From Myxococcales bacterium (GTDB lineage: Bacteria; Myxococcota_A; Polyangia; Polyangiales; Polyangiaceae): a stretch of DNA of 46,123 nt. Below, piece by piece: positions 8,324-11,336 of this stretch. The notes below the pieces were generated by a model, which saw only the letters and a list, made by a program, of their open reading frames with translations, searched no databases and was not told where the DNA came from. How positions within the stretch are numbered: the stretch's first letter is position 1; the number at the start of each line of letters is the position of its first letter. The DNA lies in NCBI GenBank assembly GCA_013297655.1, contig JAAFHV010000042.1, positions 1 through 46,123 of the forward strand. The letters run 5' to 3'. The translations under genes were made by a program, and so were the position numbers.

Positions 8324-9004
8324 TCAGCGACGTGAGCGCGAACGCAGGGTGGAAAGGAGGAGGAAGAGCACGAGCATCACCGCGAGCGCGACGTAGCTAC
8401 CTCGCGGCGAGAGGCGACCGGCCAGATCGCCCCCGAAGAGCGCGCGGACATGGGCCCGCGGCGTGAGCACCGCGCCTACGCCGAACCCACCGAGCATGAC
8501 GTCCATGACGAGAAAAATGCCACGCGCATGGGCTCCGAAGTATGCGGAACCAAACGAGAAATAACCAGCGTAAGCTGCGCCACCGAGGGCGCCGACGGCG
8601 GCGGTGGTGAGCAGATCGGCGCCGAGGGATGGGTCTTTCGGGCCGTGCGCGATCGCGACGACCGCGGCCCCGAGCGCGGCGCACACGAGGGCGGACACGA
8701 TCGCGACGGTGAGCATGATCGAGACCGCGGCTCGACGCGCGGGCGCCCCGAGGAACACGAGCGGACGCGCCGCCGCGACGACGGTGCCCTCCGGGCACAC
8801 GAGCCCGAACACCGCGAAAACGACGAGCGGCATCGACACCGCGCCGAACCCTCGCGACAGCGCGACGTAGACGGCGTGATCTTGCCGCCGCGAGAGCACC
8901 GCGACGAGGATCGCGAGCGCGGACCAGGCGAGCACCGGCAGCCACCGTGCACGGCCCGAGAGCACGCGCGAGAGCGGATGACGAAAGACCGCGAGCGCGC
9001 TCAT
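8324..9004 (-). CDS. ABC-2-type membrane protein, second permease of the module
   Basis: A 226-residue integral membrane protein from ATG 9004 (MSALAVFRHPLSRVLSG). About six hydrophobic segments are visible, including WLPVLAWSALAILVAVLS, MPLVVFAVFGLVCP, IMLTVAIVSALVCAALGAAV, GIFLVMDVMLGGFGVGAVL and YVALAVMLVLFLLLSTL, ending in a basic tail. Sequence motifs are weak. The ABC permease call comes mainly from position: its ATG overlaps the stop of the ATPase-like gene (ATGA on the minus strand, 9001-9004), so the two products should be made in fixed proportion. Substrate unknown. The frame extends upstream to 9466 but only as a shadow of the ATPase gene. Confidence 0.65.
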   Translation of the reverse strand: MSALAVFRHPLSRVLSGRARWLPVLAWSALAILVAVLSRRQDHAVYVALSRGFGAVSMPLVVFAVFGLVCPEGTVVAAARPLVFLGAPARRAAVSIMLTVAIVSALVCAALGAAVVAIAHGPKDPSLGADLLTTAAVGALGGAAYAGYFSFGSAYFGAHARGIFLVMDVMLGGFGVGAVLTPRAHVRALFGGDLAGRLSPRGSYVALAVMLVLFLLLSTLRSRSRR

Positions 9005-10023
9005 CGATGCCCTCCCGGGTCTTGCGCCGTCGCCACGAGATCGCGAGCCGAGGGATCGGAAGGCTCGGGAGGTGGCGGGGCGAGAGAGGTGAGCTTTCGC
9101 GCCGCTTCGCCCATGGTCTTCTCCGCCATTCGCCCGTCGCGGACGTAGGCGCCCGCGCCGGAGCTGCTCATCGAGACGACCGCGAGCGATTCGGCGAGGG
9201 CTGCGCGGGCCACCATTTCGGCCGCGGCGACGAGATCGTTCGTGTGAATTTCGACTGCGGTCGCGGTGGCCGTAACCGTGAGCGCGCCGCCCTCGGTCGC
9301 GACCGCCGCGGCGAGGCGCATGGGATCGGAGACGACCACGACGAGCACGAAGTGCTCTGTGCCGGCGCCGTAGGTGGCAGGTACGAGCCGCTCGTTGACG
9401 AGGCCGTGAACCTCCGCGCCGAGGGCCTTCGCGTCGCGTTGCGAAGCCGTCGCGACGAGCACGCACCGCTCCGCGCCCCCCGCCGCGAAGGCGCGAACCG
9501 CCTCCGCGACCCGACCCGCGGCCTCGCCGGTGATACGCACGAAGGGCTCGTCGAGGAGGAGCACCTTCGCCGACGAAGTGACCGCGATCGCGAGCGCGAC
9601 CGAGCGGCGCTCCTCCGGGGTGAGCGTGCGAACCGGGCGCTGCGCGAAGCGCTCGAGCCCGAGGGTGCGGAGGCGCGCGAGCGGCTCGCGCGCACCGCCG
9701 CGAAGCTGGCCCTCGAGCGCCGCGATCGCGAGGGGCGTCATGTCTTCCGGCAGAGCCACGTCGCGATCGACGTACGCGATCGCTTGCGTCGCTTTTGCGC
9801 TGCCGGCGGCGTAGCCGAGGATCGCTACCTTGCCACGCGAAGGCTTGATTTGACCCGCGAGCACCTCGAGCAAGAGCCGCGCGACGTCGGGATCGGTGCC
9901 GCCCCCGGAGATGGCGTGGCAGCCCTTTCCGAGATGGAACGTCACGTTCGTGCAGAGTGCACCCATTCGGCGGAGGGCCGCGTTGGGGAGCGATTTGGCA
10001 GCGACGCCTTCGACGTGGATCAT
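9001..10023 (-). CDS. Degenerate ABC ATPase-like protein
   Basis: A 340-residue protein from ATG 10023 (MIHVEGVAAKSL). The first ~230 residues follow an ABC ATPase: VTFHLGKG, then LLLEVLAGQIKPSRGKVAILGY, the signature-helix region LTPEERRSVALAIAV and an intact Walker B, KVLLLDEP. Key residues are altered. The Walker A position (about residues 40-48) reads GGGTDPDVA with no Lys; the Q-loop position reads YVDRD rather than YVPQD; LSGGQ is LTPEE; and the H-loop region reads ATASQRD with no His. About 110 C-terminal residues follow with no recognised domain. ATP hydrolysis is therefore doubtful. It sits between two membrane-protein genes and is preceded by the tandem mini-ORF repeats, with gggagggcgcc just upstream of the ATG. 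Confidence 0.7.
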   Translation of the reverse strand: MIHVEGVAAKSLPNAALRRMGALCTNVTFHLGKGCHAISGGGTDPDVARLLLEVLAGQIKPSRGKVAILGYAAGSAKATQAIAYVDRDVALPEDMTPLAIAALEGQLRGGAREPLARLRTLGLERFAQRPVRTLTPEERRSVALAIAVTSSAKVLLLDEPFVRITGEAAGRVAEAVRAFAAGGAERCVLVATASQRDAKALGAEVHGLVNERLVPATYGAGTEHFVLVVVVSDPMRLAAAVATEGGALTVTATATAVEIHTNDLVAAAEMVARAALAESLAVVSMSSSGAGAYVRDGRMAEKTMGEAARKLTSLAPPPPEPSDPSARDLVATAQDPGGHR

Positions 10024-10218
10024 GGCGCCCTCCCTCCGGTCGGTTGCCATCGACATGCCGTTCGCGTGCCGCTCACTCGCAGGTTCATGGCGCCCTCCCT
10101 GCGGTCGGTTGCCATCGACATGCCGTTCGCGTGCCGCTCACTCGCAGGTTCATGGCGCCCTCCCTGCGGTCGGTTGCCATCGACATGCCGTTCGCGTGCC
10201 GCTCACTCGCATGGTCAT
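10020..10218 (-). repeat. Three tandem 65-bp repeats encoding a chain of coupled 22-codon mini-ORFs
   Basis: The 65-bp unit occurs at 10021-10085, 10086-10150 and 10151-10210 (the last slightly short), nearly identical apart from one base (ccctcc versus ccctgc). Read on the minus strand, each unit gives a 22-residue ORF: 10150-10218, 10085-10153 and 10020-10088. Each ORF stop overlaps the next start as ATGA, and the last overlaps the ATG of the ATPase-like gene at 10023. The first overlaps the stop of the upstream permease at 10215-10218. Each 69-nt ORF minus the 4-nt overlap equals the 65-bp period. The peptide contains VSGTRTACRWQPT, and its end overlaps the gggaggg Shine-Dalgarno of the next ORF. 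Whether the peptides are made is not known. Confidence 0.85.
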
Positions 10219-11003
10219 TTCGCTTGCTCCGCGTCGAGGCGGAGGAGCTCGGCGCGAACGAGCAACCCGAGCACGAGCATCGAGCCGAAGATCGCGGCGA
10301 ACGCGCGCACCAGGAGGGGGCCGTCGAAGGTGCCGGGGAGGAGCGCGACGCGCATGGTGGTGAGCATGCCGGGGAGCGACACGAGGCCGGCCCACGCCCG
10401 CGGGACGAGCGTGCCCGTGAACGACGAGAGCATCTCGGGGAGACCGAAGAGCGCAAGCAGCACGAGATAACCACCCGCGCGGTTGCGCGCGCCGAGCGCA
10501 GCGAGCGAGACGAGCGACACGAGCACCGAGAACGCGAGCCCGAACAGCACGCCGACCGCGACCCCACGCACGACCTCGGGCAGAGCAGCGGCGCGGTGCG
10601 CGACGAGCATCGACGCGAGCCCAATCGCGAGGGTGCCTCCGACCGTGGGGAGCGCGACCGCGACGATGAGGCCCCCCGTCCGTGCGAAGAGGTAGTCGGA
10701 CGTTTTCACGCCGCGGAGGCGCAGGAAATCACGGATGCCTTCGTCGCGATCGCGACGGAAAGCCTGCGCCGCGCCGCCGAACGCGACGAGCACGCCGGTG
10801 CCGTAGGCGAGCGCGTCTTCCATGAGCGAGAGCCACGGGAGGAACGGGGGCTTCTCTCCCTCGTGCGCGAGCACGACCGCGATCGCCATGCCCGCGAGGG
10901 CGGTAAGGGCGGCGAGGCCCCACGCGAGCTTCACGACGAAGCGGGTCTTCACGAGGTGAAGGGCGAACGAAAAGGCCGCCTTGCTCGAAAAGAGGATCGT
11001 CAT
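10215..11003 (-). CDS. ABC-2-type membrane protein, first permease of the module
   Basis: A 262-residue membrane protein starting MTILFSSKAAFSFALHLVKT. About six transmembrane segments are seen, including LAWGLAALTALAGMAIAVVLA, GTGVLVAFGGAAQAF, TGGLIVAVALPTVGGTLAIG, GVAVGVLFGLAFSVLVSLVS, GYLVLLALFGLPEML and FGSMLVLGLLVRAELL. The cytoplasmic stretch FRRDRDEGIRDFLRLRGVKTSDYLFART, between the second and third segments, resembles the coupling region of ABC-2 or export permeases, where a conserved helix contacts the ATPase. Its stop overlaps the first mini-ORF start. It is the likely first gene of the minus-strand module that ends at 8324. No substrate can be inferred. Confidence 0.7.
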   Translation of the reverse strand: MTILFSSKAAFSFALHLVKTRFVVKLAWGLAALTALAGMAIAVVLAHEGEKPPFLPWLSLMEDALAYGTGVLVAFGGAAQAFRRDRDEGIRDFLRLRGVKTSDYLFARTGGLIVAVALPTVGGTLAIGLASMLVAHRAAALPEVVRGVAVGVLFGLAFSVLVSLVSLAALGARNRAGGYLVLLALFGLPEMLSSFTGTLVPRAWAGLVSLPGMLTTMRVALLPGTFDGPLLVRAFAAIFGSMLVLGLLVRAELLRLDAEQAK

Positions 11004-11336
11004 GAGGGGATTCGACCGGCAGCCTAGCGCGTGCCGAGCCCCCGAGTCACGATCATGGAGAAACGCGAATAGCGCGCCCTGGCAACCGTTGCACCTCGGC
11101 CTCCACCCGCTCCTGCTCGTCCGTGCCCGACCTCGGATCCCCCCCCGCCATCCGGCGCCGCCGCGAGATCCCCCTTGCCGGCCGTGGTCCTGAAGGTTCC
11201 CTCGCGATTCGCCTCCGTGCCGCTCACGATTCGCGTGCGTGCCGCCACGATTCGCGTGCGTGCCGCTCGCGATTCGTATGCCGATTCGCCTACGTGCCCT
11301 CGAGGCTCTTTGTTGCTCGATAGAACCGAATAAAGT
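11004..11336. other. Intergenic region with degenerate ~21-bp repeats
   Basis: No convincing gene lies in these 333 bp. From 11205 to about 11302 there are five degenerate direct repeats starting cgattc (11205, 11227, 11248, 11270, 11282), most of them continuing gcgtgcgtgccgct. The 12-mer cgtgccgctcac in the first unit recurs exactly in each of the three 65-bp repeats at 10020-10210, so the two repeat groups seem related and flank the permease gene. A 74-codon minus-strand frame (11024-11248) looks like low-complexity read-through. A promoter for the ABC module should lie here, but I cannot point to it. Confidence 0.7.

Follow-up and report, generated by a model that had tools for sequence, protein, structure and literature searches.

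REP- and MITE-type repeats are short, non-autonomous sequences that are present in many copies per genome. For mycobacterial MIRUs, the 1997 paper of Supply et al. reportedly described DTGA sites and elements without dyad symmetry. In a 2025 review (PMC12548453), MIRUs are described as short, apparently mobile repeats that insert at start codons and carry an ORF coupled at -4, a coupling that likely limits their effect on expression. The same review treats short-ORF (uORF) translational coupling, in which a short ORF could deliver ribosomes to an overlapping downstream gene. An earlier study (PMC2734929) gives MIRUs a length of 40-100 bp and 41 locations in H37Rv, and describes a rnc-fpg1 junction of 1-54 bp in species outside the M. 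tuberculosis complex; in M. tuberculosis, fpg1 mRNA was higher with longer repeats upstream. Our search of the open-licence literature found no paper on MIRU-like elements outside mycobacteria. Here we follow up an array of three tandem units in the window, by which we mean the whole 46,123-nucleotide stretch of DNA that was analysed, and compare its architecture with these systems.

Results

Organization of the array

The array lies between the first two genes of a three-gene ABC operon that is conserved in relatives (Table 1). As the original prediction had it, three 65-bp tandem units each form a 22-codon minus-strand ORF, on which sequence, translations and TRF (period 65, 3.1 copies, 97% matches, 0% indels) agree. 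ATGA is read on the minus strand at all four proposed junctions (10215-10218, 10150-10153, 10085-10088 and 10020-10023), and the mini-ORF chain has, as far as the sequence can tell, the geometry of translational coupling. Because the period equals the ORF length minus four, every junction stays coupled upon duplication, a rule already seen in the window that also holds for the longer unit of a relative described below. By eye, a Shine-Dalgarno-like GGAGGGAGG is found in mini-ORF 3 just 5' of the ABC ATPase start. The next junction of the operon, between the ATPase and the third gene, is an ordinary -4 overlap without a repeat. The downstream gene, called ATPase-like at the outset, does encode an ABC-transporter ATPase. 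The name permease for the upstream gene is a fair guess, because its product looks hydrophobic by eye and the gene belongs to the conserved operon, although a Pfam scan of that product matched nothing; nor did a Pfam scan of the third gene's product.

Table 1. Coordinates of the array and of the operon around it in the window
Feature	Position	Strand	Remarks
MIRU-like array: three units, 3 x 65 bp + closing ATGA	10020..10218	-	permease/ABC junction
Mini-ORF 1, 22 codons	10150..10218	-	ATGA overlapping upstream gene's stop; translation MTMRVSGTRTACRWQPTAGRAP*
Mini-ORF 2, 22 codons	10085..10153	-	translation MNLRVSGTRTACRWQPTAGRAP*
Mini-ORF 3, 22 codons	10020..10088	-	stop overlaps ABC ATPase ATG; translation MNLRVSGTRTACRWQPTGGRAP*
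Upstream gene, 262 aa, probable membrane part of ABC operon	10215..11003	-	kept in relatives
ABC-transporter ATPase gene, 340 aa	9001..10023	-	PF00005, E 2e-8; syntenic homologues
Third gene of the operon, 226 aa	8324..9004	-	start ATGA 9001-9004

Two other repeats occur in the window. A 22-bp tandem repeat (11201-11276, 3.5 copies) between a uppP/bacA gene and the permease gene resembles part of the MIRU-like unit and is possibly a fragment of the family. A 27-bp tandem array (1618-1819, 7.5 copies, 98%) at the start of minus-strand ORF 627-1832 reads in frame as PLATLRRRE repeats; since these form the N-terminus of the ORF, its true start may lie downstream of the array.

Copies elsewhere in the genome

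Is the unit confined to this junction? When the genome of the window (9.9 Mb in 546 contigs) was queried with the 199-bp array, 13 matches came back, among them those of the window. We then used a sequence-only model, R1, built from 16 units, among them the window's three, which consequently match by construction. R1 returned 67 matches at E<=1e-3; in 44 of these E was below 1e-6. One of the 67 (C40:22037) lay outside the stretches examined, and the remaining 66 matches, at 55 sites, were analysed. Two or three model matches stand in tandem at 8 of the 55 sites. Mean identity among 18 copies from different loci is 0.71, compared with pairwise identities of 95-98% among the window's three units; the triplet therefore looks like a recent tandem expansion of one older insertion.

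When 200 nt on each side were compared among all sites (E<=1e-4), 51 of the 55 proved to be without common flanks, so the dispersed part there is the element alone. The remaining four (C525:54222, C92, C528 and C479:20828) have flanks in common on both sides and, by their sequence, represent a second and longer repeat whose core is related to the unit; none of them ends on a called gene start. The longer repeat, which may have given rise to the short element or derive from it, is located at L064 ~2460-2650 (C525), L069 ~400-580 (C92), L072 (C528) and L080 (C479). In C528 a possible hairpin, ACGAACTCCTGTTCGT, was seen by eye directly 3' of its core.

Genes were called with a codon score trained on 144 ORFs from the stretches around the matches. 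By these calls the 3' end of the element is a predicted gene start at 33 of the 55 sites, and takes the form NTGA at 30. A stricter test asked in addition that either a poor coding score or a stop be found immediately upstream of the start; 27 of the 55 sites passed it, as did 163 of 20,000 positions drawn at random from these stretches. Read in reverse orientation, none of the 66 elements passed it. Grouped by match strength, the sites coupled through NTGA number 15/21, 6/11 and 9/23. At the other border, 18 of the 55 sites have a predicted upstream gene whose end falls in the interval from 50 bases before to 5 bases after the match start; nine of these genes stop with ATGA or GTGA on the first bases of the element, as in the window. 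A mini-ORF of 19-23 codons ends on the start codon at 26 of the 30 coupled sites (taking for each the in-frame start nearest 22 codons) and at 10 of 78 control NTGA starts (accepting any start at 19-23 codons), a contrast that is descriptive because the copies are homologous.

No start is predicted at the 3' end in the other 22 sites, among which broken frames occur in C87 (+1), C23 (+1) and C421 (-2); our reading is that these sites are decayed copies or undercalled genes. The two tandem copies in C87 (L010 2512-2650) have a 66-bp period owing to the +1 insertion, and their frames are fused. They have called genes on both sides, on the opposite strand, and are likely inactive.

What kinds of genes follow the element? 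Besides the ABC ATPase, 19 downstream proteins from the 33 sites were scanned. Their products include acetate kinase, PheT, glutathione S-transferase, inositol monophosphatase, two aldehyde dehydrogenases, glycerol-3-phosphate dehydrogenase, a CtaA-like protein and a metallophosphatase, along with others; three had no Pfam match, and two matched only below the curated cut-off. No common pathway was apparent among these 19 proteins and the ABC ATPase, which are mostly unrelated. Before pheT (C446, L019 2170-2205) stands a shortened copy that has kept just the beginning of the unit; its mini-ORF, 11 codons long, nevertheless terminates on the pheT start ATGA. In C182 (L060 2900-4600), each of two consecutive aldehyde dehydrogenase genes has element copies in front, in order a tandem pair of shortened units and one diverged unit.

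Constraint on frame, peptide and structure

The original prediction allowed that the mini-ORFs might encode a real small peptide. The commonest form of the 22-mer is MNMRVSRRRTACLCQPTEGRAA, and the parts ACLCQPTEGRAA recur at several sites. Substitutions were examined in the 18 of the 30 coupled units that are exactly 69 nt long, with ungapped identity of at least 0.64. Changes from the consensus comprised 164 nonsynonymous and 52 synonymous ones, where random placement would give 57.7 synonymous (P 0.87), and diversity at codon positions 1, 2 and 3 (0.169, 0.285 and 0.215; 13 copies) showed no third-position excess. Both tests speak against the small-peptide proposal. In-frame stops are a different matter: the 18 ungapped copies have none, against 3.9 expected (P 0.012). 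Diverged copies likewise keep the short frame open with changed residues, as in MTERACGRRTPSLPTEGTTA. The net length offset from the consensus is a multiple of three in 27 of the 30 gene-start copies. Among length-changed copies alone the multiple of three holds for 8 of 11 at gene starts and 9 of 19 elsewhere, a weak contrast in which the leading unit of each of three tandem pairs (C13, C182 and C540) was counted as "other". By these sequence measures, selection on the family appears to keep the frame and not the peptide.

RNAalifold found a weak 12-pair structure (-6.5 kcal/mol) in the first 16 copies and no consensus pairs in 51 copies, and Rfam gave no match for the unit.

The same junctions in related species

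What do these junctions look like without the element? The permease/ABC pair is adjacent in all 11 best relatives (seven genera), and in 10 of the 11 an in-frame start on RTGA allows a direct -4 overlap; a relative is counted under "-4" here if it has an in-frame start codon at that distance. With the array taken out by eye, the window reads GCGAAATGATCC, the arrangement of the relatives.

Four other junctions were compared in 19 relatives each. A start at -4 exists in 16 of 19 at the inositol monophosphatase junction (C52), where in 10 of these 16 no other start lies closer to the expected one, and in 15 of 19 at an epimerase junction, where the other four lie within 2 nt. At the second aldehyde dehydrogenase it exists in 9 of 19, most others being a few nt off. 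At the first aldehyde dehydrogenase (C182) it exists in only 2 of 19; spacers there measure 3-18 nt in 11 relatives and at least 50 nt in 4, so not every target was an overlapping pair. Behind these counts stand a few relatives with gaps: a start was missing from one at C52 and from one at C182, the upstream homologue from one at C182, and around the expected position no start could be used in one relative at C52 and in one at C182b.

Occurrence in other genomes

Outside its own genome the element is rare. R1 matched in 1 of 38 relatives at E<=1e-3. At E<=1e-5 it matched in 2 of 182 other genomes of the order, with one match each, and in 1 of 376 other genomes drawn from the phylum, under stricter filters that lose weak matches and recovered only 26 and 13 in the own genome. 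The relative, order and phylum sets overlap, and none of the 38 relatives or 182 order genomes is listed as the same genus. Scoring of more candidates gave three matches in G120 and one in G027, below 1e-3. A second model, R2, found 10 weak matches in 6 of 13 chosen relatives at E<=0.01; the weakest own-genome matches are near the level of the relatives, in one of which the best R2 E was 4e-4. An element pattern scan gave 0 matches in the genome contigs collection and 0 in viral contigs. A scan with the ABC protein brought up 40 pattern stretches and confirmed none, in a collection from which records of the own genome may be missing.

G120 belongs to another genus of the same family. Its contig C140 (L107 ~1440-1570) carries two diverged units before an hpf-like gene (PF02482). 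The first is without an intact mini-ORF; the second is 68 bp long, with a 23-codon ORF that ends on the ATGA of the hpf-like gene. Given these diverged units, the element family may predate the genus and may have expanded greatly in the genome studied here.

Discussion

How would a repeat settle at so many gene starts? We consider it highly probable that the 65-bp unit represents a small element, dispersed through the genome by insertion at NTGA starts, that its ORF bridges ribosomes to the displaced gene, and that tandem triplication came later in the window. Insertion would occur at an NTGA start and leave ATGA at each border. The old start codon, together with the old ribosome supply from a coupled upstream gene or an old leader, would now begin the element's 22-codon ORF. 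At the end of that ORF, ribosomes would meet a purine-rich stretch of the Shine-Dalgarno-like type noted above and a TGA that shares bases with the ATG of the displaced gene; they would terminate and re-initiate there, and the displaced gene would stay translated. Insertion of this kind could be neutral to the host gene. Slippage or unequal recombination would later have produced the three tandem copies.

Could the repeat instead insert anywhere, the start-codon copies being survivors kept as ribosome-binding leaders whose number adjusts expression? The 22 sites away from a called start would suit such a history, as would the fpg1 association in M. tuberculosis, yet the exact -4 geometry at 30 of the 55 sites and the matching empty sites fit targeted insertion more simply, and we regard insertion at random places as unlikely. 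Least probable of all is a native operon leader that was duplicated locally without any mobile element. Local duplication clearly accounts for the near-identity of the three copies, and as an explanation of copy number this account holds; as a full account we reject it, in view of a unit found at about 55 genome sites and of the relatives. The original prediction had named duplication of a ribosome-binding leader as an alternative. Its tandem duplication stands, but what was duplicated would be an inserted dispersed element and no native leader, because 10 of 11 relatives could join the two genes there by a -4 overlap alone.

Two further readings place the function in the product or in the nucleic acid. 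A conserved 22-mer acting as a protein, or as a sequence-dependent regulatory leader peptide, would explain why the length of 22 and parts of the peptide recur at several sites. The synonymous and codon-position tests disfavour it, diverged copies lose residues while keeping the frame open, and the downstream genes have no evident common pathway; a role for the peptide is very improbable. We give slightly less credence still to the idea that the repeat acts as a structured RNA or DNA (riboswitch, REP or terminator-like) and contains an ORF only by accident. The weak structure of the first 16 copies and the four sites where a longer repeat with a related core lies away from gene starts would be at home in such a repeat, but the pairing vanishes in the larger set, Rfam is silent on the unit, and the NTGA-start position and geometry are far above chance.

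If targeted insertion with translational bridging is the right explanation, has such a repeat evolved more than once? On balance we lean towards the view that a start-codon-targeting, translation-preserving repeat arose independently outside mycobacteria. It would consist of a 61-bp insert plus ATGA, without evident structure, that came to occupy dozens of gene starts of the form NTGA within a single myxobacterial lineage, selection keeping only its frame. It would then be a second, apparently non-mycobacterial, mobile repeat made tolerable by translational coupling. The MIRU idea would become testable in non-pathogens, where nature would offer many genes preceded by a single coupled mini-ORF or by arrays of two or three. 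A word of caution would follow for annotation: a short ORF that looks conserved and sits in a coupled position can belong to a repeat element instead of encoding a small protein.

Like REP- and MITE-type repeats, the unit is short, non-autonomous and present in many copies in one genome; it differs from them in its absence of consensus pairing across 51 copies, its strict orientation at gene starts and an ORF whose ends fit gene ends. As in short-ORF coupling, the mini-ORF could feed ribosomes to an overlapping gene, with the difference that the short ORFs in front of many unrelated genes all come from a single dispersed repeat family. The likeness to MIRUs extends further. The 65-bp unit falls within their size range, occupies dozens of sites as they do in H37Rv, and forms tandem arrays at some loci. 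It shares with them the start-codon position and, in geometry, an internal ORF at -4 nt, and in both systems the junctions of related species are short or overlapping. Dyad symmetry, said to be absent from MIRUs, is also not evident here, apart from the weak structure in 16 copies. The present element would differ in its host, inferred to be a member of the Polyangiaceae (Myxococcota), and differs in having a 65-bp unit with a 22-codon ORF. Since the likeness concerns features of architecture and not sequences, we call the unit MIRU-like and claim no descent; by analogy, it would work as a MIRU does.
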